Notes under the pieces: generated by a model | Seen by the model: the letters and a program-made list of their open reading frames with translations, nothing else | What the model was told of the DNA's origin: nothing | The model's database searches: none | Virus record (IMG/VR): IMGVR_UViG_3300044833_000114 | Location: 29,932 to 93,931 of that record | Origin: a virus | DNA: 64,000 bases | Direction: 5' to 3' (one strand) | Made by a program: the position numbers and the translations under genes | Part shown: positions 1,346 through 36,367 of the stretch, in pieces | How positions within the stretch are numbered: position 1 is the stretch's first letter | How the letters are laid out: each line of letters starts with the position of its first letter

Positions 1346-2008
1346 ATGAGTACCCTAATCGAATTCAAATACGTTGGACCAACCTACACCAACTGCGATC
1401 CCTCGAACGCACAGAAGGGCGCGCTGTCTTCGGACCAGGGTTGGCAGTCCACACTGACCAACTCCTACAAGAGCGTCTTCGGTCTCGGCACCCAAATGTA
1501 CCAGAAGCTGTCCGCCGGACTGGACAGCGTCATCTCTAAGGGCCGCGAAGCCATGGGGTACAGCCCTCAAGAATTGGCGCTGAAGAACTCTGAGGCAATC
1601 AATTCCGCAGCTGCGTCGGCGAAGTCTGTCAATCGCGCGATCGGAGCAAAGGCCGCGACGTCGAGCGCCACACCTGGTGTTGAGTCCGGCGTAGTTCAGG
1701 CTGAACGCGCAGGCGCTGACACCTCGATCATGAACAATCTTTCGAACAAGGAAGCCGACATCACAGAGTCAGGGTTTCAGGTTCAACGCGAGGGTTTCGA
1801 CAAAGCCGTCGCCGAGAAAGAGGGATCTCTGTCCGCTTCTTTCAGTCCGTCGACGTCGATGGACTCGGGCATCAATTCCGCAAACGCAGCTGTTTCGGAG
1901 CAAGCGAACGCCAACGAGCAGCAGAGTAGCTCGTGGATGGGTATGGTCGGCGGTCTCGCTGACTCTGCCGTCGGCGGACTGTCCCAAGGATTGGCGAAAA
2001 AGATTTAA
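1346..2008 (+). CDS. Probable internal virion / ejection protein (T7 gp14-like position)
   Basis: A 220-residue protein rich in Ala, Ser, Gly and Asn with long helical stretches. A segment around residues 115-140 (VVQAERAGADTSIMNNL) looks like small ejection proteins of podoviruses, and the C-terminus is Gly-rich and mildly hydrophobic (GMVGGLADSAVGGLSQG), suitable for membrane insertion. Its start follows the previous stop with no gap. By analogy with short-tailed phages it would be stored in the capsid and ejected before the DNA. Family assignment is by pattern and order only. Confidence 0.5.
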   Translation: MSTLIEFKYVGPTYTNCDPSNAQKGALSSDQGWQSTLTNSYKSVFGLGTQMYQKLSAGLDSVISKGREAMGYSPQELALKNSEAINSAAASAKSVNRAIGAKAATSSATPGVESGVVQAERAGADTSIMNNLSNKEADITESGFQVQREGFDKAVAEKEGSLSASFSPSTSMDSGINSANAAVSEQANANEQQSSSWMGMVGGLADSAVGGLSQGLAKKI

Positions 2009-2025
2009 TTCAAAGGAGAAAGGTC

Positions 2026-2442
2026 ATGGCAAACACTAAGCGCATCGAAGCCCTAGCCGACGGAATAGCATTCCTGAACAGAATGCACGACCCGGCATCG
2101 GACGCGTATCAACTACGCAATCCAGGGCTCGCAAGAGCCTACAGCTACCGGCATCTCGGAGAAGTAGACAACAAGGGTCGGAGAATTTTCACCTCGCTCA
2201 TCGGTGGTTACCGGTTCCTGATTCAGGACCTGGAGCGAAAATGTTCCGGACAGACTCGGGCTAACGGCTACAACGGAAAGCTCCACAACAACGACAAGCT
2301 TCCCGATCTGTTGAAGACCTTCAAACTCGACAATATCGAGGACGGTCACATCTTCACACTGCTCGACTTTTTGGACAAGGCATTACCTGGGCAAGGCGTA
2401 TCGTCCCAGACTCAACTCTCGTTTTTTCTTGAGGAAAACTAA
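2026..2442 (+). CDS. Hypothetical protein between ejection-type genes
   Basis: A 138-residue soluble protein of mixed charge with no signal peptide or membrane segment. It is preceded by AAAGGAGAAAGGTC, a strong ribosome-binding site. I recognise no domain. It lies between two probable ejection proteins in a tightly packed + strand virion cluster, so a structural or assembly role is likely. The repeated DNIEDGHIF and LLDFLDKAL segments suggest a helical C-terminal half. Confidence 0.55.
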   Translation: MANTKRIEALADGIAFLNRMHDPASDAYQLRNPGLARAYSYRHLGEVDNKGRRIFTSLIGGYRFLIQDLERKCSGQTRANGYNGKLHNNDKLPDLLKTFKLDNIEDGHIFTLLDFLDKALPGQGVSSQTQLSFFLEEN

Positions 2443-2444
2443 TC

Positions 2445-4502
2445 ATGGGCGACGCACAACAGCAACAAGTAGATCCCGCTTTGTCGAATGTTTTGGAGAA
2501 AGCCAACGTTCCGCTCATCACTCCGCAAGAGGACCAGGAACAAGTCGCGCGCGCCGCGCAACCTGCCGCCCAGCCCGCAGCGGCTCCTGCTGCTGGCGGT
2601 GCACCTAGTGCTGCACCCGCTCCGGCTCCAGCTGCCCCGGGGGCTGCGCAGCCAGCTCAACCCGCGGCGGCAGGAAGCGCTCCGGCCCAAGACCAGAGTC
2701 GCCTCGGAAACATAGAGGATAAGGGCAAGCACGTCCTCGGAGACATCTTCCAAACTCTCGCCGGCGGCAAGAAAAAGGAATGGCAGCAAACGCCTAACGG
2801 GCCTGTCGCCACTTACCGCGACCTCAAACCTGGTGAGATGGCTCAAGGTATTTTGGCTGCGGCGATCACCGGTCTGGCTTCCGGCTACGACCCGAAGAAC
2901 CGCGGCAAGGGTCCGGCGATGTCGTCTGCGTTCAGTGCTGGCTTCAAAGGTGAGCAAGAGCAACGCGACAAGCAGGCCGACCAGAAGGAACAAGAAGCTC
3001 AGAAACAATTCAGCAATCAGAACCTGTCCGACGAGATGGTTCTCAGAAAGCAGAGGGCTGCCACCGAGCAGCAAGAAGCGGTCCAGAGAATGTCCAAGGA
3101 CGCCCAGGAAATCCAGCAGATTCAACAGAGGGCTGCAGAAGGAAAAACCCTTTTTGATGAAGGTCAGAAAGATCGCATCATCAACCAGGTCGGAGCCTTC
3201 GAATCCAAGAAGACGGCCGGATGGACTGAGATCCCTCACCCTGTTACGCCCGGAGAAAGTTTCGGGTTTGCTGACATGAAGGAAGCGCAGGAGTACGCCA
3301 ACAAGTATGGCGCTCACCTGCTTAACCCCGGCGAGTTCAACACAGCTCCTGTCTACAATCCGGCGAGCGGCCTGTGGGTTCCGATGCAACAGCCCAAGGG
3401 CTACGACGAACTGAAGCAAGTTCGTTTCGCGAAGATGGAGAACGGGCAGCCCGTGAAGGATCCGAAAAACCCCGGCAAGTATTTGTCGGATGGTTCGAAG
3501 GACGCTACCGGACGCGCGATGACTCCGGCCGAGATGACGAACAAGGACTACGAGAGCTGGTTGACCGGCGACTCGAAAATCAGAATGGACAAAGCCACAG
3601 CTACTGAAAAGTATGCCATGGCATCCGAGCTGATTGCCAAGCAACAGAAAGACAAGATGCTGGCGCAAGCTGATTCTCGATACGCCGACGCCGGCGGTGA
3701 TCCGTTCGCTGTCAACATCAAAGACGGAACATGGACCATGACAGACGGAGATCGCAGCCGCTTGAGAAACGCGGCCGTGAGCAATCTCGCAGGAATGGAG
3801 AAGGCTCGCGAAGCAGCGCAGAAGGAACTGGAGAACGCGAGTACGGCAGATGAAAAAGCCGCAGCAAGAGCGACCTTCGAGAAGGCTGACCAGGGTTGGA
3901 ATTACTACAACACTCAGCTATCCACGTTGAACGGTCGCATCAGCAAGGCGGGTTCTTTGGCCAACTCCTACATCAGGAACTTCTCTGATGAGAACGGGTA
4001 CAGCGGAGATAAGGCCCTGGAGAAGTTTGACGAAGCTGTCAAGCGCGGGGACTACAAGACCTCGGGCATGACGCCCGAAGAACTCACGCGGACTCGAGGG
4101 AATCTTCTCTCAGCTCAATCGAAGGCCGAGGCGGCTAAGAAAAATCCACTCCCCGCAGACCCGATGGCTCAGAAAGCGATCGCACTGTTCCAGAACACAC
4201 CGAAGGAACAGATCGCCGGACACATCTCTGACGCGGTGACGAAGGGGACACTGACCGCAGACCAGGGTGACCAGCTCTACAAATACTACCAACTCACTCC
4301 TCCACCCTCTAAGTCTCAAAGCAAGGCTCAGTCGTCGCTGGAAGGTATCGGCTCCAACTACAGCATGGTGCAAATGCCTGACGGCTCTCAGCAGAAAATC
4401 GGCAACGACCTGGTGTCTGAGTTCGTTTCAAAAAGAGGCGCCAAGCTAATTGGTCAGGGAACCGACGCACGATCCAGCACGGAAGTTGAAAGAGAGAAGT
4501 AA
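2445..4502 (+). CDS. Large coiled-coil internal virion protein (T7 gp15-like position)
   Basis: A 685-residue protein. Residues about 1-85 are a low-complexity Ala/Pro/Gln linker. A small hydrophobic helix (ILAAAITGLASGYD, about residues 128-142) is followed by about 90 residues of Gln/Glu/Lys/Arg heptads, then mixed globular and helical regions to the end. Size, composition and position before a giant protein match middle-size ejection proteins such as T7 gp15, which form a channel through the cell envelope. No enzyme motif is visible. Its start is two bases after the previous stop. Confidence 0.5.
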   Translation: MGDAQQQQVDPALSNVLEKANVPLITPQEDQEQVARAAQPAAQPAAAPAAGGAPSAAPAPAPAAPGAAQPAQPAAAGSAPAQDQSRLGNIEDKGKHVLGDIFQTLAGGKKKEWQQTPNGPVATYRDLKPGEMAQGILAAAITGLASGYDPKNRGKGPAMSSAFSAGFKGEQEQRDKQADQKEQEAQKQFSNQNLSDEMVLRKQRAATEQQEAVQRMSKDAQEIQQIQQRAAEGKTLFDEGQKDRIINQVGAFESKKTAGWTEIPHPVTPGESFGFADMKEAQEYANKYGAHLLNPGEFNTAPVYNPASGLWVPMQQPKGYDELKQVRFAKMENGQPVKDPKNPGKYLSDGSKDATGRAMTPAEMTNKDYESWLTGDSKIRMDKATATEKYAMASELIAKQQKDKMLAQADSRYADAGGDPFAVNIKDGTWTMTDGDRSRLRNAAVSNLAGMEKAREAAQKELENASTADEKAAARATFEKADQGWNYYNTQLSTLNGRISKAGSLANSYIRNFSDENGYSGDKALEKFDEAVKRGDYKTSGMTPEELTRTRGNLLSAQSKAEAAKKNPLPADPMAQKAIALFQNTPKEQIAGHISDAVTKGTLTADQGDQLYKYYQLTPPPSKSQSKAQSSLEGIGSNYSMVQMPDGSQQKIGNDLVSEFVSKRGAKLIGQGTDARSSTEVEREK

Positions 4503-4515
4503 AAGGACTCGATAA

Positions 4516-7500
4516 ATGTCTTCATCTAATCCTCTCGACGCTTTGACTCCTCAGAACCCGACCACCAATCTAGGGGGTCAGCCCATGCCATCGGGCAACC
4601 CTCTAGATCAGTTATCGAAGGAGAATCAAACTCCTTCGCTGCCTGCACCGACTGCGATGTCGCAAACGGCGCCGGTGAACGGGAATCCTTTGGACCAGCT
4701 TCTGACCAAACCTCAGCCGGCGGAAACACCGGTAGCGGCTACCATTGCGCCCACCTCTCTTGCAACGACAGGCGCAGTCGCAGGTAACCCGCTCGATAGT
4801 TTGAATCCGCTCGATCGGCTTTATCCGGCCGGAAGAGTGTTGACCAACAAAGAAGCTGCGTACGGAAACAGCGATCCAGAAAAGATGGAGGACGAGCCCT
4901 GGTACAGCAAGGCGTGGGAGTGGATGGACTCTCCGCTTTACGATTTGCACAAATGGGGTACGCGCACAGGTGCGGGAACATTTGAGCGCGGACTCGAGAC
5001 TGGGTTGGAGGATATCGGATCAGGATTCCTGAGTCCCCTCCAACTCGGTCTAACAATCGCCACGTTCGGCGGCAGCACCGTGGAAGCCGCGGGGATCGGA
5101 GCCCTGCGGTCTATCGGTGTTTCTGAAATCGCTGCGCCGATCGTGGCTCGCGGGGCGAAGGCCTTGATGACCGCAGGTTTCAGCGCACAGATGATCGGCG
5201 GGATGCTGCAGCAGTCCCCGCAGCTCCTGGACGCGCTGAAAGACGGCGACACAGAGAACGCAACCAGGCTTGCGACCAACATCGCGGCGTCCGGACTATT
5301 CCTGACGCAAGGCTTGAAGCACGGCTATGAAGACGTCAACGCCGTCAAGAACTACGTCAAGGGGAAGAACCTCACCACGACAGAGCGCTTGGCTCTGGTG
5401 ACGGAACTCTCCGGCAATTACGACGCTGCGAAAAGCGCAGGCACGGACTACGCGCGCAGCCGGCAGGAAGACATCGTCGCGCAGCTGAAGGCTGCCGGGG
5501 CGTTCGGCAACGACACCACCGAAGCTGGCATGCGTCACTTCATTACTCAGGGCGGCGACCTCGAACGCATCGCCAAGATGCGCGGCATCGCGGACGGCAC
5601 CATCAAGCCTCGGCCTCTGACTGCGGAAGAATCGGCTCAGCAGGACCAGGCGGCTGAACTGCGAGACTGGGCCGGCAAGAGCCACGACATCACGAAGAGA
5701 AACGACGGATCTCTGCAGACCTTCTATCTCGACGACAGCGCGCCGGGTACACACAAGCTGGGCCAGACGTTGTCTGCGTCCGGAGACAAGGACGACGCTC
5801 ACTACGTTCAGATGAAGAATCCTTTCTCTGTGCGGACGGAAGAGTCGTTGCAGAAATACATCGAGCAGGCTGGCGGCGAGGAAGCAGCGAAGAAGAAGTT
5901 AGCTGACGCCGGTTATGATGGCATCGTCTACAAGACGGCGGAAGACGAACCGAAACTCATCACCTTCGGGAACGATCAGTATCGCCCGGTGCCGGAGTTC
6001 AAAGCCGCGCACGATGCTGCGTGGAATCGCGAGCATGTGTACTACGCTGTCGACAAGAAGAATTTGGAGCATGTTCTAAATCAAGGTATCGGAAAGAATC
6101 CAAAGAAAGCAAACGTTGTGTACTCCGCTACTCCTGAGGAAGCTCTCAAGTCTGCGACACTACCAGACAGCGGAAAGAAGAGCGACCTCACCGTTCTATC
6201 AGTGCCACGTCAAGAAGTCGAAGCCGGCGCTCGCGAGACGAACGCCGCCATCCACGGAAAGCTTAAGCGCGGTGCGATCGGCCCTGTCGACGTCGCCGGG
6301 AAATCTCCTGTAGAGGGAGAGGTTGCTTACAGAGTGCGGGACGTCGGGGAGGAAGGAGTTCCTAGCGAGAGCCATTCTCAGGCCACGATGTCACTCTCCG
6401 AAGCCAAGGAAAGAATTTTCGACAGCCGAGGAAAAATCCAAGGCAAGCCTCAGGAGATCGTCGCCATTCCTTTGGGTGGATTAGAGTACGACAGGAAACC
6501 CGGCCCCAACGGAAACGACTGGGTCAAGTTCAAAAAGGATGTTCCGGAATCCAACGTAAAGCAGTTGTCAGATCTGGGACCTAAGCCTGTTGCGGATGAC
6601 ATGCTGATCACCGAGAAGCGGCACATGCCAGGTCACCTCCTGGAAATGGAGACCGACAAGGAAGGAAACCCCAAAGCGACCGGCCGCTCTTTCCCGCTGC
6701 GCCCTCTCGGCGCCGAAGATATGCCAGGTGACAACTCTCGTTTCAACAACAGCTACACCGAAGAAGAGAAGCAGAAATATCTCGCCGGTCTCGACGCAGC
6801 GCAGAAGCTCACGCCTGAACAGCAGCAGATCGCCCAGACGATCCGGAAGATCTACGACAACTCTTTCCAGCGCGCATGGGAGAAGGGTATGGTCCGCGAC
6901 TGGATCCAGTCCTATCACCCGCAAGCATGGGCCAGCGATCCCGGCGGGATGTGGAAGTGGTTGTTCAACAAGGACACCGAGAAGGTCACCAACGGCGCCC
7001 TGAACGACCTCCGTCACCAGACCAACGACGGGAGCTTCGACACCAACATCAACTCCGCGCGCCACCGCGCATTCAACACGGAGTTCCAGGGCATCATGGC
7101 AGGCGAGAAGTTCAAGACCGACGACCTGTCGATGCACCTGTTCAATCACCTCAAGGCCGTCGAGCACGCCGCAGCTGCGCGAGACTACCTGAACAATCTC
7201 CGCAAGCAAGACACCAAGGCTACCGACGGCAGGCCGGCAGTAGTCCTGCAAGGCAAGGCGCGAGTAATCGGCGGAGAAGAGAATCCAGCTGTCGCTATCA
7301 GCCCCGCGTCTGCGCAGTCTATCCGCATCACTCCAGAGAAGATCGAGATGATGCGTGTACCGGATCCCAAGACTGGCGTGAGCCCTCTTGAAGACGGCTT
7401 GGAGAAAGGCATCATTCAGAAACTCCCGTGGACCTCTGCTGACGAAAAGGGCAACAACGTTCCGGCGTACGCCTACACGTCTGACGGCTACGTCCTGATG

Positions 7501-28317: not shown

Positions 28318-28406
28318 GTTTTCTCCTTTTCTTGGGGCACACAAGTGCATCCCGCACCACGGCCTTGTTAATTAACAGGGCCGTGGTATGTGAGGCGCTT
28401 TGCTTA
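28318..28406 (-). promoter_or_regulatory. Punctuating stem-loop element A
   Basis: The inner stem ACCACGGCC (28356-28364) with GGCCGTGGT (28379-28387) encloses the palindrome TGTTAATTAACA. A purine run AAAAGGAG follows on the - strand. The upstream gene's stop (GAGTAA) begins the element. Outer pairing is weaker than in the other copies. Confidence 0.6.
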
Positions 28407-28607
28407 CTCTTTTTCTTGTACGGGTGTGACGACTGCGATCAGTCCGGGTCGGCGCATCTCCCCGAACTTTCTAGCTGCAGCCTGGTCCATTGCGCGGATG
28501 ATGGTGTAGGTTTGTCCGTCCTTCTCGTCTCGCACTAGGTTCTCGGGGCGCACGCTGCCCCGATACCACTCGATGCGGTACCGCCGGCGGTCAGACATTT
28601 CGCTCAT
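28404..28607 (-). CDS. Small hypothetical protein (about 67 aa)
   Basis: A basic beta-rich N-terminus (RRRYRIEWYRGSV) followed by a helix and GLIAVVTPVQEKE. It starts at 28607 or at the ATG at 28598, both inside the end of the preceding gene. Its stop GAGTAA opens element A. Unknown function. Confidence 0.55.
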   Translation of the reverse strand: MSEMSDRRRYRIEWYRGSVRPENLVRDEKDGQTYTIIRAMDQAAARKFGEMRRPGLIAVVTPVQEKE

Positions 28608-28851
28608 CTTGTTCGTAGGCGAGCTGGTCCAGATAATCCTCTGAACCTTTCAGCGTGTGTTTCTTCACGTTGTTCAAGACTTCCTCCAGCTCCTCGACCG
28701 AGATGACGTTGGCCGCGATGCAGTATTCGCGCAAGTCGAGAATACGCACCTCGGCTGTCTCTGCGTTCTTGGCGAACACGGTATCATGAAACCACTGCTG
28801 CTCGTCGTTGTCGTAGCTGATGACCAAGTAGCGGTTCAGTTTTTTAGGCAT
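28591..28851 (-). CDS. Hypothetical protein (86 aa)
   Basis: A beta-alpha protein: KLNRYLVISYDNDEQQWFHDTVFAKNAETAEVRIL resembles the strand-helix fold of several neighbours (compare 24812-25021). The C-terminal half is helical and acidic. It overlaps genes on both sides. Confidence 0.6.
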   Translation of the reverse strand: MPKKLNRYLVISYDNDEQQWFHDTVFAKNAETAEVRILDLREYCIAANVISVEELEEVLNNVKKHTLKGSEDYLDQLAYEQDERNV

Positions 28852-29461
28852 TGTGTTCTGCTCCGTATTTCTGCGCGGCTGTTTCGCCTTGCGCGGTTAG
28901 CTTTGCTATGTGTGCTGCTTCGCTCTTCGCGGCTGCTGTGGCTTCTTCCCTGCAGTACTTGATATCGCCGATGAAACCCCAGCACGAATCCAGGTGCGAG
29001 TCTTCTGGGCTCTCGATGATGTAGCCGTAGACTTCGCCGGTGAGATAGCTGTCGTACTCGGATACCTCAGCCACCAGCAAGTCGATCGCTTCCTGACGCC
29101 GCTTCTTGGTGACGTTCTTGCACATCCAGTTCTCACGGATATCTTTCTTCTCCGCGTAGATGAATCCAACCTGACCGCTGTCCCACGGACAAGAGAACGG
29201 GGAAGTACGCATCGTGATGCCGCTGTGGTCGTAGAGATAAAGCGGCAGAGCTACGCCGCCCTCTTTCTCAATGCGCTCCACGAACTCTTTGGCTTCTTCC
29301 ACGCTCATGCTGTGCTTGTCGCCCAGGTCGTAGCGACGGTGAAAGCAAACCATGTGGCCGAAGTTGTCGTGGTCGGTGCGCGGATTGAATGGTTCAGAGT
29401 CCTGCAAGATGCGAACGGTTAGCCCGTCCACCTCGAAGCGCTCTACGTCATCGTTGTGCAT
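28844..29461 (-). CDS. Conserved phage protein with MVCFHRRYDLGD motif (205 aa)
   Basis: The ATG at 29461 has AAAGGAGAACGT. The segments NFGHMVCFHRRYDLGDKH, ALPLYLYDHSGITM and GFIYAEKKDIRENW mark a protein family widespread in phages, plasmids and conjugative elements. It has no agreed function; the order of conserved aromatic, His and Asp residues hints at a catalytic or metal-binding core. It is preceded by element B. Confidence 0.8.
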   Translation of the reverse strand: MHNDDVERFEVDGLTVRILQDSEPFNPRTDHDNFGHMVCFHRRYDLGDKHSMSVEEAKEFVERIEKEGGVALPLYLYDHSGITMRTSPFSCPWDSGQVGFIYAEKKDIRENWMCKNVTKKRRQEAIDLLVAEVSEYDSYLTGEVYGYIIESPEDSHLDSCWGFIGDIKYCREEATAAAKSEAAHIAKLTAQGETAAQKYGAEHNA

Positions 29462-29532
29462 ACGTTCTCCTTTTATTGGGCGAGTGATGCCCGACAGCGC
29501 CACCATCACTGATGGCGCTGGCATGCTCACTC
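29462..29532 (-). promoter_or_regulatory. Punctuating stem-loop element B
   Basis: Inner stem CAGCGCCA (29495-29502) / TGGCGCTG (29513-29520). Outer stem GAGTG+ATGCC (29482-29491) with GGCAT+CACTC (29520-29532), with three bases unpaired on one side. On the - strand the outer 5' arm contains the upstream stop (GAG TGA) and the element ends before AAAAGGAG. Confidence 0.75.
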
Positions 29533-29691
29533 CCTGTCTATGTTGAACCACTGCTCTCCCAGCTCTTCTTTCTGCTCGGTGCTTAAGGCTTCGTTTAAGA
29601 CTTGAAACAAGGTCTCTTCCGGCAGCACGTTAATAACCTGCCGAAGTAAATCTGCGGTTTGCTCTGTTGTCAGCTTTCCGATATCGATCAT
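29527..29691 (-). CDS. Small helical protein (54 aa)
   Basis: The ATG at 29691 with GGGAGGAAGC, overlapping the upstream stop. Acidic helices (LTTEQTADLLRQVINVL, LSTEQKEELGEQW). Ends GAG TGA, which opens element B. Not recognised. Confidence 0.6.
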   Translation of the reverse strand: MIDIGKLTTEQTADLLRQVINVLPEETLFQVLNEALSTEQKEELGEQWFNIDRE

Positions 29692-30002
29692 GCTTCCTCC
29701 CTTTTTGCGTAAGATGGTGCGAAGAACTCGAACAAATCTGCGTCGTGTTCGCGCAGGAATTCCCACTCGCGGTCAGACAAGAGCAAATCATCTGCTGGAG
29801 TTGATTCGAGATTGTCATAATCGAGAAGGTCTATATCGACGCCTCCCTCATTGATTGCTATATTGGCGACACCTCCGTTGATCGTCACAAGCAAATACGG
29901 CTTAAATGCTTGCGCGATCTTCTTGCTTGCCGTCCTGAGTCGTCCGTGCTCCAAAGCGCTCGCGGCACTCCGGAGTAAACGTGCTTGTTCTGCTCTGGTC
30001 AT
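29688..30002 (-). CDS. Hypothetical protein (104 aa)
   Basis: The first third is a basic helix (TRAEQARLLRSAASALEHGRLRTASKKIAQAF), the middle beta (YLLVTINGGVANIAI), the end acidic. That pattern could be a DNA-binding helix plus regulatory domain, but no family is recognised. Coupled by four-base overlaps on both sides. Confidence 0.6.
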   Translation of the reverse strand: MTRAEQARLLRSAASALEHGRLRTASKKIAQAFKPYLLVTINGGVANIAINEGGVDIDLLDYDNLESTPADDLLLSDREWEFLREHDADLFEFFAPSYAKREEA

Positions 30003-30187
30003 TTCGCCTCCAATGATTTGTTGTGCAGCTTGACGATGTGCTTTGCGACTTTCTCGGATATAGCTACTCCGGTGACTTCTTCTTCGCCGTCTTCGCTTGT
30101 GATGATGAACATCCCGGCGTGTAGACCGTAGGTCTTCTCGTCATCTGCAAGCTGCCATACCGCCCATTTCTGCTTGAGTATGTTCAT
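29999..30187 (-). CDS. Small hypothetical protein (62 aa)
   Basis: The ATG at 30187 overlaps the previous stop. A compact beta-rich sequence (KWAVWQLADDEKTYGLHAGMFII) then a helix AKHIVKLHNKSLEAK. Unknown. Confidence 0.6.
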   Translation of the reverse strand: MNILKQKWAVWQLADDEKTYGLHAGMFIITSEDGEEEVTGVAISEKVAKHIVKLHNKSLEAK

Positions 30188-30444
30188 GACACCTTCCTTT
30201 CGTTCTGCGCTACGTGGCGCGGGCAGTACTTGCTTCCTTGGGTTGCGTCTTCGATGCACAACCCGGCGTCGCAGCACGAAGGTCCGTAGCTTATTTCTGC
30301 TCCCGCCAAAATATCCGAAAGCTTGTGGTAGGCGTCGCGCGCCGGTCCCTCCGACTCTTCGCCGGAGAACTCACGGTCGATGAACTGCGTGTACTCCGCG
30401 CGCTTCTCGTTGACTTCAATCGTGATCGTGATCTTTGCACTCAT
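30184..30444 (-). CDS. Hypothetical protein with C-terminal Cys cluster (86 aa)
   Basis: The N-terminus is a strand-turn-helix (KITITIEVNEKRAEYTQF); the C-terminus has CCDAGLC and YCPRH, a Cys4/His-type metal site. Coupled at both ends. No known family. Confidence 0.6.
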   Translation of the reverse strand: MSAKITITIEVNEKRAEYTQFIDREFSGEESEGPARDAYHKLSDILAGAEISYGPSCCDAGLCIEDATQGSKYCPRHVAQNERKVS

Positions 30445-30578
30445 GCTGCCTCCCTTTCCTGCTTCTTAAACTCAAGTTTCTGCTTTGGTTTTGGTGTCGG
30501 CCTCACTGCGCGGCCGAAAGAGAGTACGAAACCTACAGACACAACGAACCACGCTGAGAAAACTCCTGCTGCTATCAT
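30441..30578 (-). CDS. Tiny single-pass membrane protein (45 aa)
   Basis: The ATG at 30578 overlaps the upstream stop (TGATG). One membrane helix (AAGVFSAWFVVSVGFVLSF, residues 3-21) followed by a basic Pro/Lys tail (RPTPKPKQKLEFKK). Small membrane proteins of this kind often modulate host envelope enzymes; here the target is unknown. Confidence 0.6.
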   Translation of the reverse strand: MIAAGVFSAWFVVSVGFVLSFGRAVRPTPKPKQKLEFKKQEREAA

Positions 30579-30697
30579 CAGGCCTCCCTTTCTATGAACG
30601 GCTGCACGCGGTTTGCTTCGCGCTGCCATCCCTCAAACTCTTGAATCTCCAGCTCCAGCTCTGTTTCTGTTTGTATTTCTGTTTGAGTCTCTTGCAT
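30578..30697 (-). CDS. Tiny acidic protein (39 aa)
   Basis: The ATG at 30697 has AAAGGAGAAAC. An unusual run of alternating Gln/Thr/Glu (QETQTEIQTETELELEIQEF) makes a highly acidic helix. Its stop overlaps the next start. Possible nucleic-acid mimic or coiled-coil partner; unproven. Confidence 0.55.
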   Translation of the reverse strand: MQETQTEIQTETELELEIQEFEGWQREANRVQPFIEREA

Positions 30698-30771
30698 GTT
30701 TCTCCTTTGCTTGGGAAGTGAATCCCGACGCGCACCCTCTCAGCGAAGGTGCGCGGCATGTTCACTCACGC
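30698..30771 (-). promoter_or_regulatory. Punctuating stem-loop element C
   Basis: Inner stem GCGCACC (30730-30736) / GGTGCGC (30748-30754); outer stem AGTGAA (30717-30722) / TTCACT (30761-30766). The ArdC-like gene's stop lies in the outer arm on the - strand. AAAGGAG follows. Confidence 0.75.
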
Positions 30772-31695
30772 TGCGACTGCTGCCAGCTCCGGTTCTTGTT
30801 GCGGTTGCTCTACGGGCTTCTCGAACTTCACGTCTCGGATGTGATCGCAGGCTTTCTGCGCCGCGCTGATGGATTGCATCAGCATCTTCTTGTTGTTGTC
30901 GTTGAGCTTGAGCTTCTCAAGCCAGTGCTTGATGTAGGCCGCACTGTTCTCGACGACCGCAGGGGCGATGCCGACGACACCGCACAGCATCGAAGCGCCG
31001 AACTCTGCGACCAGCTCCTCAGCGCTGTACTTGTCGCCGCCAAAGCCATCACCGTTCGTGATGCCTTCGCGACTCAGCCTCTTGAGTGCGCCGGTTGAGT
31101 GCACCATCTCGTGGAACAAGGTGCTGTAGTATTCGCGTTGCTCCTTGAATGCTCCGCGAACCGGCGTGCCGATCAGGTCTTCGGACGGACGGTAGAAGGC
31201 TGCACCGGCGTCCACCAGCTTCGGCTTATCCGGGTATCCATCCCAGATTGCTTGCGCCGCCGGCAGATCCTCGATTGGTGCCTGGGGTTTGTTGAGCCCG
31301 AGTTCTTCGGCTAGCTCCGGGTTGCACTGGGTGATGTTGAAGACGTGCCAGGTCTTCCAGTACCCGGCGCGCGTGGTGCCGTCCTCGCCCGTCTCTTCGT
31401 TCCTGCTCTTGCGGTCATAAACTGCGTACTTGCAGATCGCAGTTCCCTTCTCACCCTTCATGACGTGACCGCCCAGGTCCTTGGCCTGCTTCGCAGTGAG
31501 CCACCAGGGAGAAGCCTTCTGCTGCAACATGAGCAGGAAGACATTCATTCCGCGGTACTCTTTCTGACTGATGAGATTCTTGGGAAGGCCTTGACTGACC
31601 CAGGGCTTGCGCCACGGGACAGTGCCTGCCTCAAGCTGCGATATGATCTGGTCTGCCGCTTGCTGATACGGCGACACTTTCTTCTGGTCTTCCAT
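30766..31695 (-). CDS. ardC: ArdC-like antirestriction protein
   Basis: A 309-residue protein with the two ArdC parts: an N-terminal single-strand-DNA-binding-like domain (SPYQQAADQIISQLEAGTVPWRKPW, then GMNVFLLM and WWLTAKQAKDLGGHVMKGEKG) and a zincin metallopeptidase domain with HEMVH at about residues 195-199 and a downstream EELVAEFGA supplying the third ligand. Plasmid ArdC protects incoming DNA from restriction. The ATG at 31695 has GAGGTGACT upstream; the GTG six bases earlier is less likely. In this early block it would act just after DNA entry. Confidence 0.88.
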   Translation of the reverse strand: MEDQKKVSPYQQAADQIISQLEAGTVPWRKPWVSQGLPKNLISQKEYRGMNVFLLMLQQKASPWWLTAKQAKDLGGHVMKGEKGTAICKYAVYDRKSRNEETGEDGTTRAGYWKTWHVFNITQCNPELAEELGLNKPQAPIEDLPAAQAIWDGYPDKPKLVDAGAAFYRPSEDLIGTPVRGAFKEQREYYSTLFHEMVHSTGALKRLSREGITNGDGFGGDKYSAEELVAEFGASMLCGVVGIAPAVVENSAAYIKHWLEKLKLNDNNKKMLMQSISAAQKACDHIRDVKFEKPVEQPQQEPELAAVAA

Positions 31696-31757
31696 AGTCA
31701 CCTCGATTGGGAATGAGTCCCGGTCGCCCTACCAAGGCAGGGCGAACGCGTTCACTC
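31696..31757 (-). promoter_or_regulatory. Punctuating stem-loop element D
   Basis: Inner stem TCGCCCT (31724-31730) / AGGGCGA (31739-31745), outer GAGT / ACTC (31715-31718 and 31754-31757). A small second hairpin GGGA-TCCC lies next to the ribosome-binding site on the - strand. The upstream gene's GAG TGA stop is the outer arm. Confidence 0.75.
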
Positions 31758-32042
31758 CGTAGGTATGTCCAGCTCGAATTCAAACGGATTGAAGTAATGC
31801 GGACGATGTATCTCGTCGCCATCCCCGTCATAAATTGTGTTGTCGAAGTTCTCAATGAACTTCTCGACGTCGGCGGGCAGATCAACTCGCACTTTGAGAG
31901 CCGTGACGGTCGCGTATGAGCCTTCAACGTGCACGATTGTATTCAGAGCTTCACTCATGCACAGAGCTATCGGGCAGTGATTTGGGTCGTCCTGTATTCC
32001 TCTCGCGATGTGGTCTTTCGTAACTTCAAATTTACGCAGCAT
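31752..32042 (-). CDS. Hypothetical protein (96 aa)
   Basis: The ATG at 32042 has AGGAGGACGA. A beta-rich N-terminal half (FEVTKDHIARGIQDDPNHCPIALCM) and an acidic C-terminal half. The segment DDPNHCPIALCMSEAL recalls a small phage family seen near antirestriction genes, without known function. Its GAG TGA stop opens element D. Confidence 0.65.
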   Translation of the reverse strand: MLRKFEVTKDHIARGIQDDPNHCPIALCMSEALNTIVHVEGSYATVTALKVRVDLPADVEKFIENFDNTIYDGDGDEIHRPHYFNPFEFELDIPTE

Positions 32043-32105
32043 TCGTCCTCCTGTTTGGGAATGAGTCCCGGCGAGCCCACCGTGATGGGCTCGACGCGTT
32101 CACTC
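32043..32105 (-). promoter_or_regulatory. Punctuating stem-loop element E
   Basis: Inner stem CGAGCCCA (32072-32079) / TGGGCTCG (32086-32093); outer GAGT (32063-32066) / ACTC (32102-32105). Same frame as element D (CGGGACTCATTCCCAA before the ribosome-binding site) but a different inner stem, so pairing is kept while sequence changes. Confidence 0.8.
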
Positions 32106-32291
32106 TGCGAAAGTAACGAACGTTATTTCGAAGTACTCATCCTGCGGCCCCGACTCATTGTCCATGCCTCGTTCCGGTTCGTACTCCTCTTTCCAGTACT
32201 CTTGCAACTTGTCTTCTGTTGGCTCTTCGCGAAACAGAGCGAAGTCTTCTCCGTGTCTGTGGTGATAAATCCCCAACCAATGACCCTTCAT
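32100..32291 (-). CDS. Small hypothetical protein (63 aa)
   Basis: An acidic protein with a His/Tyr/Trp-rich start (MKGHWLGIYHHRHGEDFAL) and Glu-rich middle. Its stop GAG TGA opens element E. It overlaps the next gene's stop (ATGA at the start). Unknown function. Confidence 0.6.
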   Translation of the reverse strand: MKGHWLGIYHHRHGEDFALFREEPTEDKLQEYWKEEYEPERGMDNESGPQDEYFEITFVTFAE

Positions 32292-32488
32292 GCGACCTCC
32301 TGTTTTCCTGCGTAGTGGATTGTTGGCTTGCTAACGCTGGGTGGTGCGCCTTTCTTGTTGAGCACGTAGCCGTCGAAGTGCATGTCCCGCTCAATCTTCA
32401 AACCAAACGGGCCTTTGACAGACTGAAGCTCGGACAGATTGAAGTAGCCGAGTTCCTTCTCGTGGCCTTCGACCAGACCGAAGAACAT
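32288..32488 (-). pseudogene. DUF2958-like gene, 5' part broken
   Basis: From the ATG at 32488 the product is 66 residues: ELGYFNLSELQSVKGPFGLKIERDMHF is the conserved end of DUF2958 proteins. The same frame continues upstream without a start as WYAVEGS ... TWTEF, also DUF2958-like, until a stop at 32579. A GTG at 32582 with AAGGAGGGCGCT upstream is out of frame by one base, so a single inserted base would explain the break. Truncated translation from 32488 remains possible; a N-terminal part of the family (about 35 residues) is missing either way. DUF2958 genes are often found near ArdC, as here. Confidence 0.6.
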
Positions 32489-32578
32489 AAACTCAGTCCA
32501 TGTCTCCTTCGGGCATTCGGTGCAGTCGAAGCATGCATGCTCGGGGCAGACCAGCGAACCCTCGACTGCGTACCAGGA

Positions 32579-32704
32579 TCACAGCGCCCTCCTTGTGTGG
32601 CCGCATCTTAGGCAACGCCACCACTTACCGAGTACGTTGGCTAACTCAAACTTGCGTTGCTTCTGACAATGTGTGCAGGTCAGCCAGCGAATGTCGGGAG
32701 TCAT
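32579..32704 (-). CDS. Small zinc-ribbon protein (41 aa)
   Basis: The ATG at 32704 overlaps the upstream stop. 41 residues with CTHC and CLRCGH, a minimal zinc ribbon, and a basic end. Its stop overlaps the GTG that could start the DUF2958-like frame. Confidence 0.6.
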   Translation of the reverse strand: MTPDIRWLTCTHCQKQRKFELANVLGKWWRCLRCGHTRRAL

Positions 32705-32961
32705 AACACTCCCGCTGACTTCGCCACTTGTTCCTCAAAGTTGCCGTGGTCCAGCCATCGCGACACAAACTTCGTGACGCAAGATTGTCCACAGACATCC
32801 GCATCGAATGCAGGATTAGTTCCGTTAGAATCTCCCGCTGCCATAATGCGAAGTTCGACGTCGCCACTCTTCAACGTAACCACGACGTGAATCCTCCACC
32901 AGTGGTTCGCCTCTTTCTTCGGCGCACCGCAACAATCGCAAACAACTACTTTGTTCATCAT
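32701..32961 (-). CDS. Cys-rich protein (86 aa)
   Basis: It starts MMNKVVVCDCCGAPKKEANHWW with CDCC and, 48 residues on, DVCGQSCVTKFVSRWL, a treble-clef-like zinc arrangement. The middle is beta-rich. The ATG overlaps the previous stop. No known role. Confidence 0.65.
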   Translation of the reverse strand: MMNKVVVCDCCGAPKKEANHWWRIHVVVTLKSGDVELRIMAAGDSNGTNPAFDADVCGQSCVTKFVSRWLDHGNFEEQVAKSAGVL

Positions 32962-33212
32962 TGGTTGCCTCCAAAGTCGTACTCGAATGCAGCGTCGTGA
33001 CCTAGCGTGCGCAGGCCCACCACCGTCATGCTGCCGTCTTTGGCGCGGTACTCTGAAGTGTCCGAATAGCGGAATTGTTGCTTAGGCCAATACTCTGAAT
33101 CGTGCTTCCGTTGAACCCTTGGCCGCACAGGCTGTAGGGAGATGACTGTGTCCAGGGTGCCGTCATCTTCAAGACACACGTCGAACAGTACGCCGTTTGC
33201 GCGTATTCTCAT
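32958..33212 (-). CDS. Hypothetical protein (84 aa)
   Basis: The ATG at 33212 has GAGG eight bases upstream; the GTG six bases earlier is an alternative. A beta-rich basic protein (RIRANGVLFDVCLEDDGTL, MTVVGLRTLGHDA). Not recognised. It is preceded by element F. Confidence 0.6.
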   Translation of the reverse strand: MRIRANGVLFDVCLEDDGTLDTVISLQPVRPRVQRKHDSEYWPKQQFRYSDTSEYRAKDGSMTVVGLRTLGHDAAFEYDFGGNQ

Positions 33213-33284
33213 CGTCACGCCTCTTGGGGGAAAGTATCCCGCAAGCCCCCAAGCTAAGCCGGAGGGCTTACGCGCTACTTACTC
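33213..33284 (-). promoter_or_regulatory. Punctuating stem-loop element F
   Basis: Inner stem AAGCCC (33243-33248) / GGGCTT (33264-33269) and outer AAGTA (33232-33236) / TACTT (33276-33280). The upstream gene's stop GAG TAA begins the outer arm on the - strand. Confidence 0.75.
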
Positions 33285-33881
33285 CACAGCTTTCTTCCAG
33301 ATGCTGAACGAGATGTCGAACTGACCTACGCCGTCGATGTTGAAGAGCAAACGCTTGTGACCTGCGTCGTGCAAGCGCTTGTATATCGCTTTAGGGTTGT
33401 CATTCTGTCCTGGGTGAAAGCCGCTCTCGAAGTCTCCTTCGAGCTTGATGTAGCCGTAATCGGCTGGGCTGATGTGGTCGTTGAGTGCACGGCGTGGGTT
33501 GTCTTCGATGCTTTCCAGATACTCTTCTATCGGGCAGCAGTCCACACAGAACAGCTCGCAGTCGTTCATGATGAAGTAACTGGGCTGCCATCCCCAGCAG
33601 TTAGGGCTCATGCGAATAGCCTTGTTGCACTCCTGACAGTTAGACCATTCGTCCGACCACTCGATCTCGTAGCCGTAAGCTTCCAGCAAACGAGTCGCAT
33701 CACCGGAGAACTTGTTCCAGTTGCCGAACAGAATTCCCTTCTTCGGGTCTTTGTAGCCTGGTTCCGCGTACTCGTGGGACCAGCCTAGGTTCTCGATCTC
33801 GCTTTCTCTTGCTCGCAAATCGTATGGTCCGCAGGATGGCGGACGACACAGCGACTTGCGAAGAATGTACTCTGGAGTCAT
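33279..33881 (-). CDS. Hypothetical protein with zinc-knuckle centre (200 aa)
   Basis: The ATG at 33881 has AAAGGACTGCT. Centre: NCQECNKAIRMSPNCW and CELFCVDCC, several CxxC pairs. The rest is beta-rich and Trp/Tyr-rich. It is larger than most neighbours. Metal binding is likely; no family recognised. Ends GAG TAA, opening element F. Confidence 0.6.
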   Translation of the reverse strand: MTPEYILRKSLCRPPSCGPYDLRARESEIENLGWSHEYAEPGYKDPKKGILFGNWNKFSGDATRLLEAYGYEIEWSDEWSNCQECNKAIRMSPNCWGWQPSYFIMNDCELFCVDCCPIEEYLESIEDNPRRALNDHISPADYGYIKLEGDFESGFHPGQNDNPKAIYKRLHDAGHKRLLFNIDGVGQFDISFSIWKKAVE

Positions 33882-33959
33882 AGCAGTCCTTTCGCGTTGG
33901 GAGAATGTCCCGCAGCGCCCACACTCTCGGATGGGCGCTACGTGCTCTTCTCTCACTTA
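33882..33959 (-). promoter_or_regulatory. Punctuating stem-loop element G
   Basis: Inner stem AGCGCCCA (33914-33921) / TGGGCGCT (33932-33939), eight perfect pairs; outer GAGAA (33901-33905) / TTCTC (33948-33952). The upstream stop TAA lies at its 5' end on the - strand. Confidence 0.75.
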
Positions 33960-34223
33960 TCCGTTCGGATTCATTGCCTTCTCGCCCCAACCTCTGGGGT
34001 GAGGTTCTTCGTGGTCTACATATTCGTCGTCGCGTTCCGCTTCTATCTCGGCGCACCAGTTGCATGTATCGCCCTGCTCAACATCAGATCCGCATTCTCT
34101 GCACTCAAAGAAGCGCACCCAGTCTTGGCGCTCCTCAACCCAAGTCTTCTTGCTGTTGGGGCAGCCTGTCTCGTGACAGAACACGCCGTTTATCATCAGC
34201 GCTTCGCATTGGTCGCAGCGCAT
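33957..34223 (-). CDS. Conserved phage Cys-rich protein, ING-H-GCPN type (88 aa)
   Basis: The ATG at 34223 has GGAGGTGTGTTC. The wording RCDQCEALMINGVFCHETGCPN then CRECGSDVEQGDTCNWC is a well-known small phage/plasmid family, with several zinc knuckles and no known function. A perfect 9-bp stem-loop lies at 34246-34271 in its leader. Confidence 0.75.
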   Translation of the reverse strand: MRCDQCEALMINGVFCHETGCPNSKKTWVEERQDWVRFFECRECGSDVEQGDTCNWCAEIEAERDDEYVDHEEPHPRGWGEKAMNPNG

Positions 34224-34245
34224 GAACACACCTCCAGTACTTCGC

Positions 34246-34271
34246 GCATCCCAGATGTTAGACTGGGATGC
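34246..34271 (-). promoter_or_regulatory. Leader stem-loop of the 33957-34223 gene
   Basis: GCATCCCAG / CTGGGATGC, nine pairs with an eight-base loop, ends 22 bases before the start codon. The 142 bases further upstream to 34413 show no gene. No U tract follows, so it is not an ordinary terminator. Confidence 0.5.
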
Positions 34272-34413
34272 ACACTGTGCTGGATTATCCGTTCTCCCTA
34301 CGATGTGCTGACGATACGATTCAGAGAGCACACGGTTCAATAGTAGGGAGGTAACTGTCTTTCTAGTACTGGCGTTTACCTGGCACTTCGTACAGTGTGC
34401 GGCGCTGGACGCC

Positions 34414-34587
34414 CTAGGCCACCTTCAGAGTTTCGTGGCGCTCTTGTGTGCCGTACACGCGGTCGTGTTCACGCTTTTCAACAGCTTGTATCAGGCGTTC
34501 AGCAGTCTCAACGGCGACCATTGTGGAATGGTTTTCTGCTGAATAAACCAATGCTGCCATCAAACAAGTTAGAGTTTTCTTGTCCAT
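34414..34587 (-). CDS. Small helical protein (57 aa)
   Basis: The ATG at 34587 directly follows the previous stop with GAGGACCGATAG upstream. A largely helical protein (TLTCLMAALVYSAENH, then VETAERLIQAVEKRE). Not recognised. Confidence 0.6.
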   Translation of the reverse strand: MDKKTLTCLMAALVYSAENHSTMVAVETAERLIQAVEKREHDRVYGTQERHETLKVA

Positions 34588-34806
34588 CTATCGGTCCTCG
34601 TCGAAGTGTTGCCGCAACGCTGGGCAAACGTTCAATTGGTCCGCACTGAAGTACGCGGAAACGTCTTCCGGCGTCCTTGGACCTAGGATGAACTCGTCAC
34701 TCTGGGTAAGATTCTCTTCGACGTAATTGAACTCCTGATTGAAAGCCTGCTCCGTGCTTTCGATTGCACGCCGATGACGCTCAGCGCTAGCTGGATCATT
34801 TCGCAT
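34588..34806 (-). CDS. Small hypothetical protein (72 aa)
   Basis: The ATG at 34806 has GGGAGAACCAG. An Arg/Glu/Gln-rich helical N-terminus, then a beta-turn rich end (SDEFILGPRTPEDVSAYF). Element H precedes it. Unknown. Confidence 0.6.
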   Translation of the reverse strand: MRNDPASAERHRRAIESTEQAFNQEFNYVEENLTQSDEFILGPRTPEDVSAYFSADQLNVCPALRQHFDEDR

Positions 34807-34908
34807 CTGGTTCTCCCTTTGTTGGATTGAGTCCGCGTGAGCCTGACTCGGCAGGCACACTCCGGCGAAGGAATGCACCTGATGTGGCAGGCTGTGTTGG
34901 CGAGATTA
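34807..34908 (-). promoter_or_regulatory. Punctuating stem-loop element H
   Basis: Stem GTG-GCCTG / CAGGC-CAC with one unpaired base on each side (34837-34845 and 34852-34860). GAGT (34829-34832) and ACTC (34859-34862) could form the alternative outer pair. GGGAG follows on the - strand. Longer than other copies on its 5' side. Confidence 0.6.
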
Positions 34909-35079
34909 CTGGCGAGGTTCTGGCGAGGAAACTGGTGCTGGTGTCTCTGTGCTATCCCAACCGAATGGGACATACACGTCGCTGTTCTCGACACCGTTGG
35001 CGTTATAGTCTGCAACGCGCATGGTGCCACGCGCATCTCGGATGTAAGTTCGGTCTGAGGCTTTGATTTCAGTCTGCAT
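34906..35079 (-). CDS. Small hypothetical protein (57 aa)
   Basis: The ATG at 35079 has AGGAGAAACT. A beta-rich first half (IKASDRTYIRDARGTMRVADY) and a Pro/Thr tail. It ends before element H; element I precedes it. Unknown. Confidence 0.6.
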   Translation of the reverse strand: MQTEIKASDRTYIRDARGTMRVADYNANGVENSDVYVPFGWDSTETPAPVSSPEPRQ

Positions 35080-35157
35080 AGTTTCTCCTGTTGGGCGAGT
35101 GGCCCGTGTAGCCCACCTGAATGGGCTACCCATGCTACTCGCGCTACTGACTTACTT
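35080..35157 (-). promoter_or_regulatory. Punctuating stem-loop element I
   Basis: Inner stem GTAGCCCA (35108-35115) / TGGGCTAC (35122-35129); outer GCGAGT (35095-35100) / ACTCGC (35137-35142), six perfect pairs. A small GGGC/GCCC hairpin lies at the downstream end. The upstream gene's TAA is about ten bases 5' of the outer arm on the - strand. Confidence 0.8.
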
Positions 35158-35349
35158 TCCGCAGCTGACGATGAGCGTGTCGCCCACTTTGGTAACGGTG
35201 GGATCTCCGCCGTTCTGGCAGCTTACGCCTACTTCGCTCACACTCAAGCGGGACAGCTTGTAGATGTATTCCACTTTGTCCTTGGCATAAGCTCCCAAGG
35301 CAAAGACCGCTAGCAGTGAAGCAACAAACAGAGTCTTTCGCTTGTGCAT
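35152..35349 (-). CDS. Small secreted or periplasmic protein
   Basis: A 65-residue protein with a textbook signal peptide: basic MHKRK, a hydrophobic core (TLFVASLLAVFALGA) and the cleavage motif AYA before KDKVEY. The mature part is about 43 residues with two Cys (SCQNGG, VSCGK), a possible disulfide. A phage-encoded periplasmic mini-protein could protect the host envelope or block a competing phage; no function is known. The ATG has AAGGGTGACAC upstream. Confidence 0.65.
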   Translation of the reverse strand: MHKRKTLFVASLLAVFALGAYAKDKVEYIYKLSRLSVSEVGVSCQNGGDPTVTKVGDTLIVSCGK

Positions 35350-35416
35350 GTGTCACCCTTGACGCTAGTTGCGTCGTCCTGCCCTCCGTGAAGAGCAGGC
35401 CGCCGAAACTAGCGAC
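35350..35416 (-). promoter_or_regulatory. Punctuating stem-loop element J
   Basis: Outer stem CGCTAGTT (35363-35370) / AACTAGCG (35407-35414), eight perfect pairs, containing the upstream stop TAG; inner CCTGC (35378-35382) / GCAGG (35395-35399). AAGGG follows on the - strand. The clearest example of a stop codon buried in the outer stem. Confidence 0.85.
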
Positions 35417-35582
35417 AATCGCCGAAAGTCTTTGCGTACAGCTTTGCGTACAGGACGATGCGCTCAAACTTGGCGAACCCATCCTCGACACTCTCAGGCA
35501 CCGCTATAGCTTGCGTGCGGTAAGCCTCTGCGATGTCCCGGAACATGTGGCGTGCCGGCCTAACCGTGGTCTCTATACCCAT
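35409..35582 (-). CDS. Small hypothetical protein (57 aa)
   Basis: The ATG at 35582 has AAGGGAGACAAC. A helical protein (FRDIAEAYRTQAIAVPESVEDGFAKFERI). Its CGC TAG stop begins element J. Not recognised. Confidence 0.6.
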   Translation of the reverse strand: MGIETTVRPARHMFRDIAEAYRTQAIAVPESVEDGFAKFERIVLYAKLYAKTFGDCR

Positions 35583-35649
35583 GTTGTCTCCCTTGGGCGA
35601 GTGGCCCATCGAAGGCACCGTAGTGCCCTCGCCGCGCTACTCGCTACTC
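35583..35649 (-). promoter_or_regulatory. Punctuating stem-loop element K
   Basis: Outer GCGAGT (35597-35602) / ACTCGC (35639-35644); inner CGA-GGCAC / GTGCC-TCG (35610-35630) with one unpaired base each. The upstream stop GAG TAG lies at the 5' edge on the - strand. Confidence 0.8.
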
Positions 35650-35820
35650 CAGGTACTCCTGATGCAGTTCTTCATCTAAACGCGCTAGAGTGTTCAGCGC
35701 GTCCGCGTCATGAGCCCAACATTGAGCGTGGAGCAGCATCCTGCGCGCTAGTCTCAGCAAGGTGTAATGGCTCACTTCACCTGTGCGAGACAGTTCCAGA
35801 GCTGTCAGCAATACTTGCAT
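35644..35820 (-). CDS. Small helical protein (58 aa)
   Basis: The ATG at 35820 has GGGAGGAATCC. Leu-rich helices (QVLLTALELSRTGEVSHY, LLRLARRMLLHAQ) and acidic end HQEYLE. Not recognised. Confidence 0.6.
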   Translation of the reverse strand: MQVLLTALELSRTGEVSHYTLLRLARRMLLHAQCWAHDADALNTLARLDEELHQEYLE

Positions 35821-35893
35821 GGATTCCTCCCTTCGTCGCGTAAGTAGACTCAACCTGGCGCTCCGCAGAGCGCTAGGCAAAGGCTACTCAATC
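35821..35893 (-). promoter_or_regulatory. Punctuating stem-loop element L
   Basis: Inner CCT-GCGCT / AGCGC-AGG (35854-35862 and 35869-35877), outer TAAGTAG (35841-35847) / CTACTCA (35884-35890) with one wobble. The upstream stop TGA is part of the outer arm on the - strand. Confidence 0.75.
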
Positions 35894-36070
35894 AATCCAA
35901 GCGAAGTATTGCTCATCTACGCGCACAGGGTTGGGCACCATGCGTAGACTCACACCAACGGCAAGGTGCGCTATGAGCACTAGTTCAGCGTCGTTGGTGA
36001 TGACTGTCTTACCTTGACGCATCTGATACAGCTTAACCTTGGCTTCGTTCAGAACGGATACGGCTTGCAT
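35888..36070 (-). CDS. Small hypothetical protein (60 aa)
   Basis: The ATG at 36070 has AGGAGGAATCCGTCT. A helix, then a beta-rich middle (KTVITNDAELVLIAHLAVGVSLRMV). Ends in WID then TGA within element L. Unknown. Confidence 0.6.
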   Translation of the reverse strand: MQAVSVLNEAKVKLYQMRQGKTVITNDAELVLIAHLAVGVSLRMVPNPVRVDEQYFAWID

Positions 36071-36175
36071 AGACGGATTCCTCCTGTGGACGGCGCTGGG
36101 TGCCCCGATTGGTCACTAAGTGACCGCAGCTATCCCCTGCTCTCATTCAGGGGATAGCGACTGGCACTTACAAAC
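36071..36175 (-). promoter_or_regulatory. Punctuating stem-loop element M
   Basis: Inner GCTATCCCCTG (36129-36139) / CAGGGGATAGC (36148-36158), eleven perfect pairs; outer TAAGTG (36117-36122) / CACTTA (36165-36170). The upstream TAA stop is the outer 5' arm on the - strand. AGGAGG follows about 40 bases later. Confidence 0.85.
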
Positions 36176-36290
36176 TGGCGATAGCGGCATGCATGAAAAT
36201 TTGAGCAAGAAAGCGGCGCAACGTGGGATTAGACTCAAACTGTGGCATTAACCTCATGTACTCATGGTGACAAGCGAGACGAGCAGACAT
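36168..36290 (-). CDS. Tiny helical protein (40 aa)
   Basis: The ATG at 36290 has AGGAGGTAGAACT. His and Met-rich helix (LACHHEYMRLMPQF) then a hydrophobic helix (LRRFLAQIFMHAAIASL). Stop TAA starts element M. Possible membrane-associated peptide. Confidence 0.55.
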   Translation of the reverse strand: MSARLACHHEYMRLMPQFESNPTLRRFLAQIFMHAAIASL

Positions 36291-36367
36291 AGTTCTACCT
36301 CCTAGGATTGAGCCAGTAAGCGCTCGTCATACCCACTCTTTCGAGTGGGCATGGTGTGCGGTTACTT
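36291..36367 (-). promoter_or_regulatory. Punctuating stem-loop element N
   Basis: Inner CAT-CCCACTC / GAGTGGG-ATG (36328-36353), outer AGTAA (36315-36319) / TTACT (36362-36366). The loop on the - strand is GAAA. The upstream stop TAA is in the outer arm and AGGAGG follows. Confidence 0.8.

Follow-up and report, generated by a model that had tools for sequence, protein, structure and literature searches.

RNA hairpins and repeated elements between genes have been described in several phages, and they provide the background for the locus considered here, a leftward operon in a 64,000-nucleotide stretch of viral DNA (the window, bases 29932-93931 of the 93.9 kilobase (kb) IMG/VR record IMGVR_UViG_3300044833_000114). 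From 36.67 down to 28.3 kb this operon has 15 long gene junctions, and one family of RNA elements stands at 13 of them. T4-type phages have intercistronic hairpins with stable tetraloops, and the put RNA of phage HK022 is present in few copies per genome and is not tied to stop codons. The early region of T7, which carries ocr, contains a series of ribonuclease III (RNase III) sites (R0.3, R0.5, R1, R1.1, and R1.3). In cluster K mycobacteriophages, the SAS/ESAS elements are sequence repeats (GGGATAGGAGCCC and 17 base pair (bp) consensus arms), with an inverted repeat just upstream of the starts of some non-structural genes (PMC3203893).

The elements in our window resemble each of these systems in part. 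They share with SAS/ESAS, the closest described phage element of that kind, the repetition of two-part elements near gene starts; however, the repeats there are of sequence, whereas only structure is kept here. Identity with SAS/ESAS was rejected, as the three matches to GGGATAGGAGCCC in the window (at most 2 mismatches) are within chance and none lies at an element. T4-type hairpins are likewise stable, intergenic, and not terminators, and are not known to have a second exclusive fold or a stop-codon arm. With the put RNA, too, an early phage transcript carries a tandem pair of hairpins, but here 13 copies lie in a single operon. The T7 sites are likewise irregular hairpins in early-gene gaps of similar length, with a lower stem, an internal loop, and an upper stem of about 9-10 bp, and the lower stem of R0.5 also spans the stop-codon region. 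An anti-restriction gene, of the ArdC type, is carried by our operon too (downstream of element L). The T7 upper stems share AAGG..CCTT, in contrast to the unrelated stems of our elements.

An RNA element at the long junctions of the operon

The phage encodes an integrase, an A1-like DNA transfer protein, a primase-polymerase, and a family A DNA polymerase, and its leftward operon runs downwards from about 36.67 kb on the minus strand. We read this strand, listed its genes, and folded each long gap. Stem-loops do fill the long gaps, as an initial annotation of the sequence had proposed for 14 successive junctions, but there are 15 such junctions, and only 13 of them (A-F and I-O) carry the same family; G and H hold structured RNA of other kinds. 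The elements are confined to the long junctions of the operon. Overlapping or abutting junctions, including those of the 28.0-24.8 kb stretch, are without one, and no copy was found elsewhere in the record.

From 5' to 3', an element consists of a stem (P1), a mismatched core, a second stem (P4), a spacer, a small hairpin (P5), the bases AA, and, in most copies, a Shine-Dalgarno sequence. P1 has 5-8 bp. In about 10 of the 13 copies there is overlap between its 5' arm and the upstream stop codon, and in the others the arm lies a short way downstream of that codon. The core has an invariant C-G pair, a purine-purine mismatch, and a Y-G pair (all 12 aligned rows). P4 starts 6-22 nucleotides past the upstream stop codon and has 9-13 bp; its small loop is in many cases one of the stable tetraloop types (UACG, UGCG, GAAA, or GUGA). 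After a spacer of 2 nucleotides in most copies, P5 follows as a hairpin of 3-4 bp (GGGC/GCCC, GGGA/TCCC, GAGC/GCTC, GGTC/GACC, or GACG/CGTC). The initial annotation had treated this small hairpin (in its GGGA/TCCC and GGGC/GCCC forms) as an extra added to many copies. We found instead that it is not optional, since a clear version is present in 12 of 13 copies, with element C having three weak pairs only, and that it overlaps the outer stem.

Two mutually exclusive folds

The two parts of the element are alternative folds, a point that, like the separate nature of G and H and the bare overlapping junctions, goes beyond the initial annotation. In the first fold, P1, the conserved core, and P4 with its small loop form one long irregular hairpin, and in the second, P4 stands beside P5. 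P1-P3 and P5 cannot coexist because the loop and stem of P5 contain the 3' arm of P1, and in every modelled element some bases of the P5 stem are also paired in the long state. A pseudoknot joining P1 and P5 is disfavoured, as P1 in most cases extends into the stem of P5, and loops of 5 nucleotides would need near-full pairing. In the main family, the Shine-Dalgarno sequence is unpaired in both folds. Folding gave D, E, and F an identical dot-bracket pattern despite their unrelated stem sequences.

Partition function calculations placed the probability of P5 near zero in 12 of 15 intact elements, the others (B, M, and O) being partly in the P5 form already. When everything upstream of P5 was removed, this probability rose to 0.84-1.00 in all 15. 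The same range was reached in 14 of 15 when the RNA was masked to 9 nucleotides past the stop codon, as it would be by a ribosome. The mask left element F unchanged because the stop codon of F lies about 22 nucleotides before P4. The element has two exclusive folds, each with support from covariation, as expected of a bistable switch.

Covariation and statistical support

A descriptor scan of the minus strand found 11 copies. With a Shine-Dalgarno sequence and a start also required, it returned nine minus-strand matches against none in the shuffled strand, and two plus-strand matches against one. The claim that the inner stems pair by covariation was supported: in an alignment (A6) fitted to a P4 and P5 model, and so with counts that lean towards these stems, 99.3% of P4 and P5 cells pair (70% in shuffles) and 38 are doubly changed (shuffle mean 10), which was matched by 0 of 500 shuffles. 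RNAalifold returned the identical 13 pairs, 10 of them with double changes. The covariance analysis that the initial annotation named as a refuting test, now run, found significantly covarying pairs rather than a lack of them. Independent support for P5 came from a swap test among six representatives (1/720 permutations) and from three held-out copies recovered by a covariance model of P4 and P5. This model was seeded with nine copies, with element E left out of the seed, and it recovered elements M and J and one copy in a second phage (at 123 in L051, below) with expectation values (E) of 1e-5 to 9e-4 over 670 kb.

For the long stem, the P2-P4 counts were above those of shuffles, and the pairing of an outer arm at the stop codon, noted earlier, was upheld for P1-P3, which lies outside the model. 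The native arms did better than swapped partners in an energy-based permutation test (63/200000 for 16 elements; 693/362880, or 0.0019, for nine non-redundant elements), which was picked after a free-register longest-helix test on the non-redundant set had been only marginal (11034/362880, p ~0.03). They also did better than shuffled upstream arms (Fisher 5e-7 for all and 7e-6 for non-redundant elements, with paralogous copies treated as independent). We take these permutation and Fisher values as supportive and not as exact.

Occurrence in other genomes

Our pattern scan of 2.9 million viral contigs identified one other phage with the element, L051/G008 (69 kb). It is a true, diverged relative, whose proteins match ours at 76% (primase), 70% (DNA polymerase), and up to 79% (others). 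The first gene of its leftward operon is homologous to ours (43%), and its small-gene set is largely different. No fewer than three elements occur in L051 (at 539, 1776, and 123), together with a variant at 1262-1198 (minus strand) whose outer stem encloses the Shine-Dalgarno sequence of the next gene (GGGAG). This variant is the clearest hint of a translational role. The other pattern-scan matches that were inspected (L041, L042, L047, L061, and L062) were chance, with seven further loci uninspected.

Other searches did not extend the family. The model found no credible element in five partly related phages (G001, G002, G003, G005, and G007) that have the DNA transfer protein in common. When viral contigs were searched with the ArdC-like protein, the DNA transfer protein, the first gene of the operon, and the primase, only L051/G008 proved to carry the element. 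In 396 Acidobacteriota genomes the model gave seven matches with E no higher than 0.05; chance alone would give more, and the two strongest lack the architecture. As the host phylum was guessed, the evidence of absence from this search is weak. DNA similarity to known phages yielded nothing useful, and no family of Rfam 15 reached its gathering score, the only match being a sub-threshold microRNA (E 0.057).

Possible functions of the elements

We conclude that these bistable intercistronic RNA elements form a genuine family, present in two related phages, and that their mechanism may be either RNA processing or a ribosome-operated switch. Our tentative preference, which we rate at slightly below an even chance, is that the elements are T7-like double-strand RNase sites whose downstream product would refold into a 5' hairpin. 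The layout, with its irregular hairpin, lower stem, internal mismatches, and upper stem at the junctions of a polycistronic phage transcript, is most like that of the T7 early junctions, and for this reason we favour a putative site in the mismatched core. Each element would then be a punctuation signal of the leftward transcript. The intact form would be one irregular hairpin of about 22 steps, with P1 over or beside the stop codon, followed by the mismatched core and P4. We infer that the 3' side of the core would be cut by host RNase III or an equivalent enzyme specific for double strands, that the upstream mRNA would retain P4 as a protective 3' hairpin, and that the downstream mRNA, rid of the P1 arm, would refold to carry P5 as a 5'-terminal hairpin a few bases before the Shine-Dalgarno sequence. 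With only 2 nucleotides between P4 and P5 in most copies, cutting would leave a hairpin at each new end, and an RNase site in the core would account for the short spacer, the exclusivity of the folds, and the conservation of P5. The proposal also draws on the covariation of the stems, on the calculated formation of P5 in all 15 elements once their upstream part is gone, and on the confinement to long junctions, a placement shared with the T7 early hairpins.

Several points weigh against this proposal. Our covariance model matched no T7 site in a search of T7 positions 800-6700, and because it finds nothing there we do not class the elements as T7-type members; a consistent alternative P5 is also not seen at the T7 sites. 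The comparison with T7 takes the cut positions there as given. Element O has little P1, and element C has little P5. Finally, the overlap of P1 with the stop codon, present in about 10 of 13 copies, is more than a pure processing site would need, apart from compactness.

This overlap is better explained by the main rival, a ribosome-operated translational switch, which we regard as possible but on balance unlikely. Here the terminating ribosome would cover the 5' arm of P1-P3 but not P4, which begins 6-22 nucleotides later, and the freed 3' arm would form P5, altering the region beside the downstream Shine-Dalgarno sequence and so coupling or insulating translation of the next gene. The flipping of 14 of 15 elements by the ribosome-like mask is consistent with such a switch, as are the Shine-Dalgarno sequence inside the outer stem of the L051 variant and the absence of the element from overlapping, hence already coupled, junctions. 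However, neither fold of the main family pairs the Shine-Dalgarno sequence, so that the benefit of P5 is not evident, and element F fails to respond to the mask. Structure just past a stop codon has also been reported to lower coupling, which drops with distance (PMC12548453); these findings would favour insulation over coupling. The serial form of this idea, in which a terminating ribosome would flip each element from the long hairpin holding the stop codon to the two-hairpin form, so that long junctions would report upstream translation and control the downstream gene or mRNA, seems to us rather doubtful. Processing and a ribosome switch would be compatible, as the cutting site would also be covered while a ribosome sits on the stop codon.

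The remaining explanations account for less of the evidence. Static mRNA-stabilising hairpins or binding sites for a phage or host RNA-binding protein, with neither cutting nor switching, would suit the stable loops, and the conserved core could be a recognition site, but the retention of both exclusive folds is left unexplained and we consider this improbable. The elements are not intrinsic terminators, in agreement with the earlier statement that none has a U tract; no terminator-like match on the transcribed strand falls on any element, and no promoter-like sites were found on them. The covarying, non-terminator RNA hairpins of the initial annotation therefore stand, and its list of functions was open-ended. 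Of these, antitermination by sites acting on RNA polymerase in the manner of put RNA would fit a tandem hairpin pair without a U tract in a phage operon transcript. The put RNA acts from a single early site, and this reading fits worse than RNase III-type processing or punctuation or a translation-linked switch because it leaves unexplained the 13 copies, their association with stop codons, and the way in which the stop-codon arm competes with P5; we think it very improbable. Least likely of all is a feature of the DNA itself, such as integron-like recombination sites, operator palindromes, or dispersed mobile repeats. The elements do punctuate small accessory genes and adjoin different genes in L051, but their stem sequences are unrelated, both alternative folds covary, and the model shows a strong orientation bias (scores of up to 63 bits, with no more than 23 on the opposite strand). 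Integron attC sites were rejected specifically, as the paired boxes RYYYAAC and GTTRRRY are absent from the six elements checked.

Individual elements and neighbouring features

All of the following coordinates are on the minus strand. Element A (36308..36366), which shows the folds and matches the model, has P1 AGTAA/TTACT over the TAA stop codon and the P5 variant GAGC/GCTC. In B (36111..36170), P1 (TAAGTG/CACTTA) begins from the stop codon and P5 is GGTC/GACC, and C (35835..35890) pairs P1 TGAGTAG/CTACTTA with the weak P5 GTC/GAC. D (35593..35644) has P1 GCGAGT/ACTCGC and P5 GGGC/GCCC, and E (35361..35414) has P1 CGCTAGTT/AACTAGCG and P5 GACGC/GCGTC. F (35091..35142) folds as D and E do, with the stop codon 9 nucleotides before P1. 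Element I (33897..33952) has P5 GGGA/TCCC. J (33224..33282) and M (30711..30768) are the copies in our window recovered from outside the seed, and the minimum free energy structure of M is the P4 and P5 fold. K (32055..32106) contains a TGA stop codon in its P1 (GAGTGA/TCATTC), L (31707..31758) lies upstream of the ArdC-like gene, and N (29476..29533) has P1 GAGTGA/TCACTC and P5 GGGC/GCCC. O (28334..28409) has a strong, extended P5 and a poor P1.

Junction G (34840..34893) holds a different structured element. Its internal-loop sequence (GCCTGCCACATCA ... GCCGAGTCAGG) is nearly identical at 2223-2176 in L051, with different inner stems; this is possibly a separate RNA motif, and a viral scan matched L051 only. 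The structure at junction H (34234..34283) is the last hairpin of a long structured gap and belongs to another family. In both phages, a motif close to GGGGCACCCAGCGCC (GGGCGTCCAGCGCC at H) recurs in the leader and in certain gaps, with similar sites at ~36105, 34412, and 37520, and at ~3955 and 2170 in L051.

Two apparent gaps are in fact occupied. The gap before 28350 contains the gene 28607-28404, which ends at element O, and the gap at 32579-32291 in a mechanical gene chain contains a truncated DUF2958 frame. This frame (32577-32291) is open right after the TGA of the preceding gene and runs for about 30 codons without an ATG before the C-terminal part of DUF2958. The intact relatives in L018 and L034 differ from it at the N-terminus, and a truncated gene, an unusual start, or read-through are the options.

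Upstream of the first gene, dense stable hairpins fill the leader in both phages (37000-36670 here and 3030-2767 in L051). The divergent region upstream of the operon (38570-38130) has TAGGATGAAAAGGATGTAATT-type repeats and a CA run, and is possibly a control or replication region.

Implications

Intercistronic phage hairpins were already known, and what stands out here is the double conservation of exclusive folds. A repeated element that keeps both folds by covariation, stands at each long junction, and is usually tied to a stop codon was not described in the sources we searched. As a processing site, it would be a compact design for cutting polycistronic mRNA with a hairpin left on either side of the cut; as a device operated by ribosomes, it would be a serial translational switch. 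The 13 natural variants, whose stems differ, allow direct tests of the mechanism through compensatory variants, and such parts could serve in synthetic operons.

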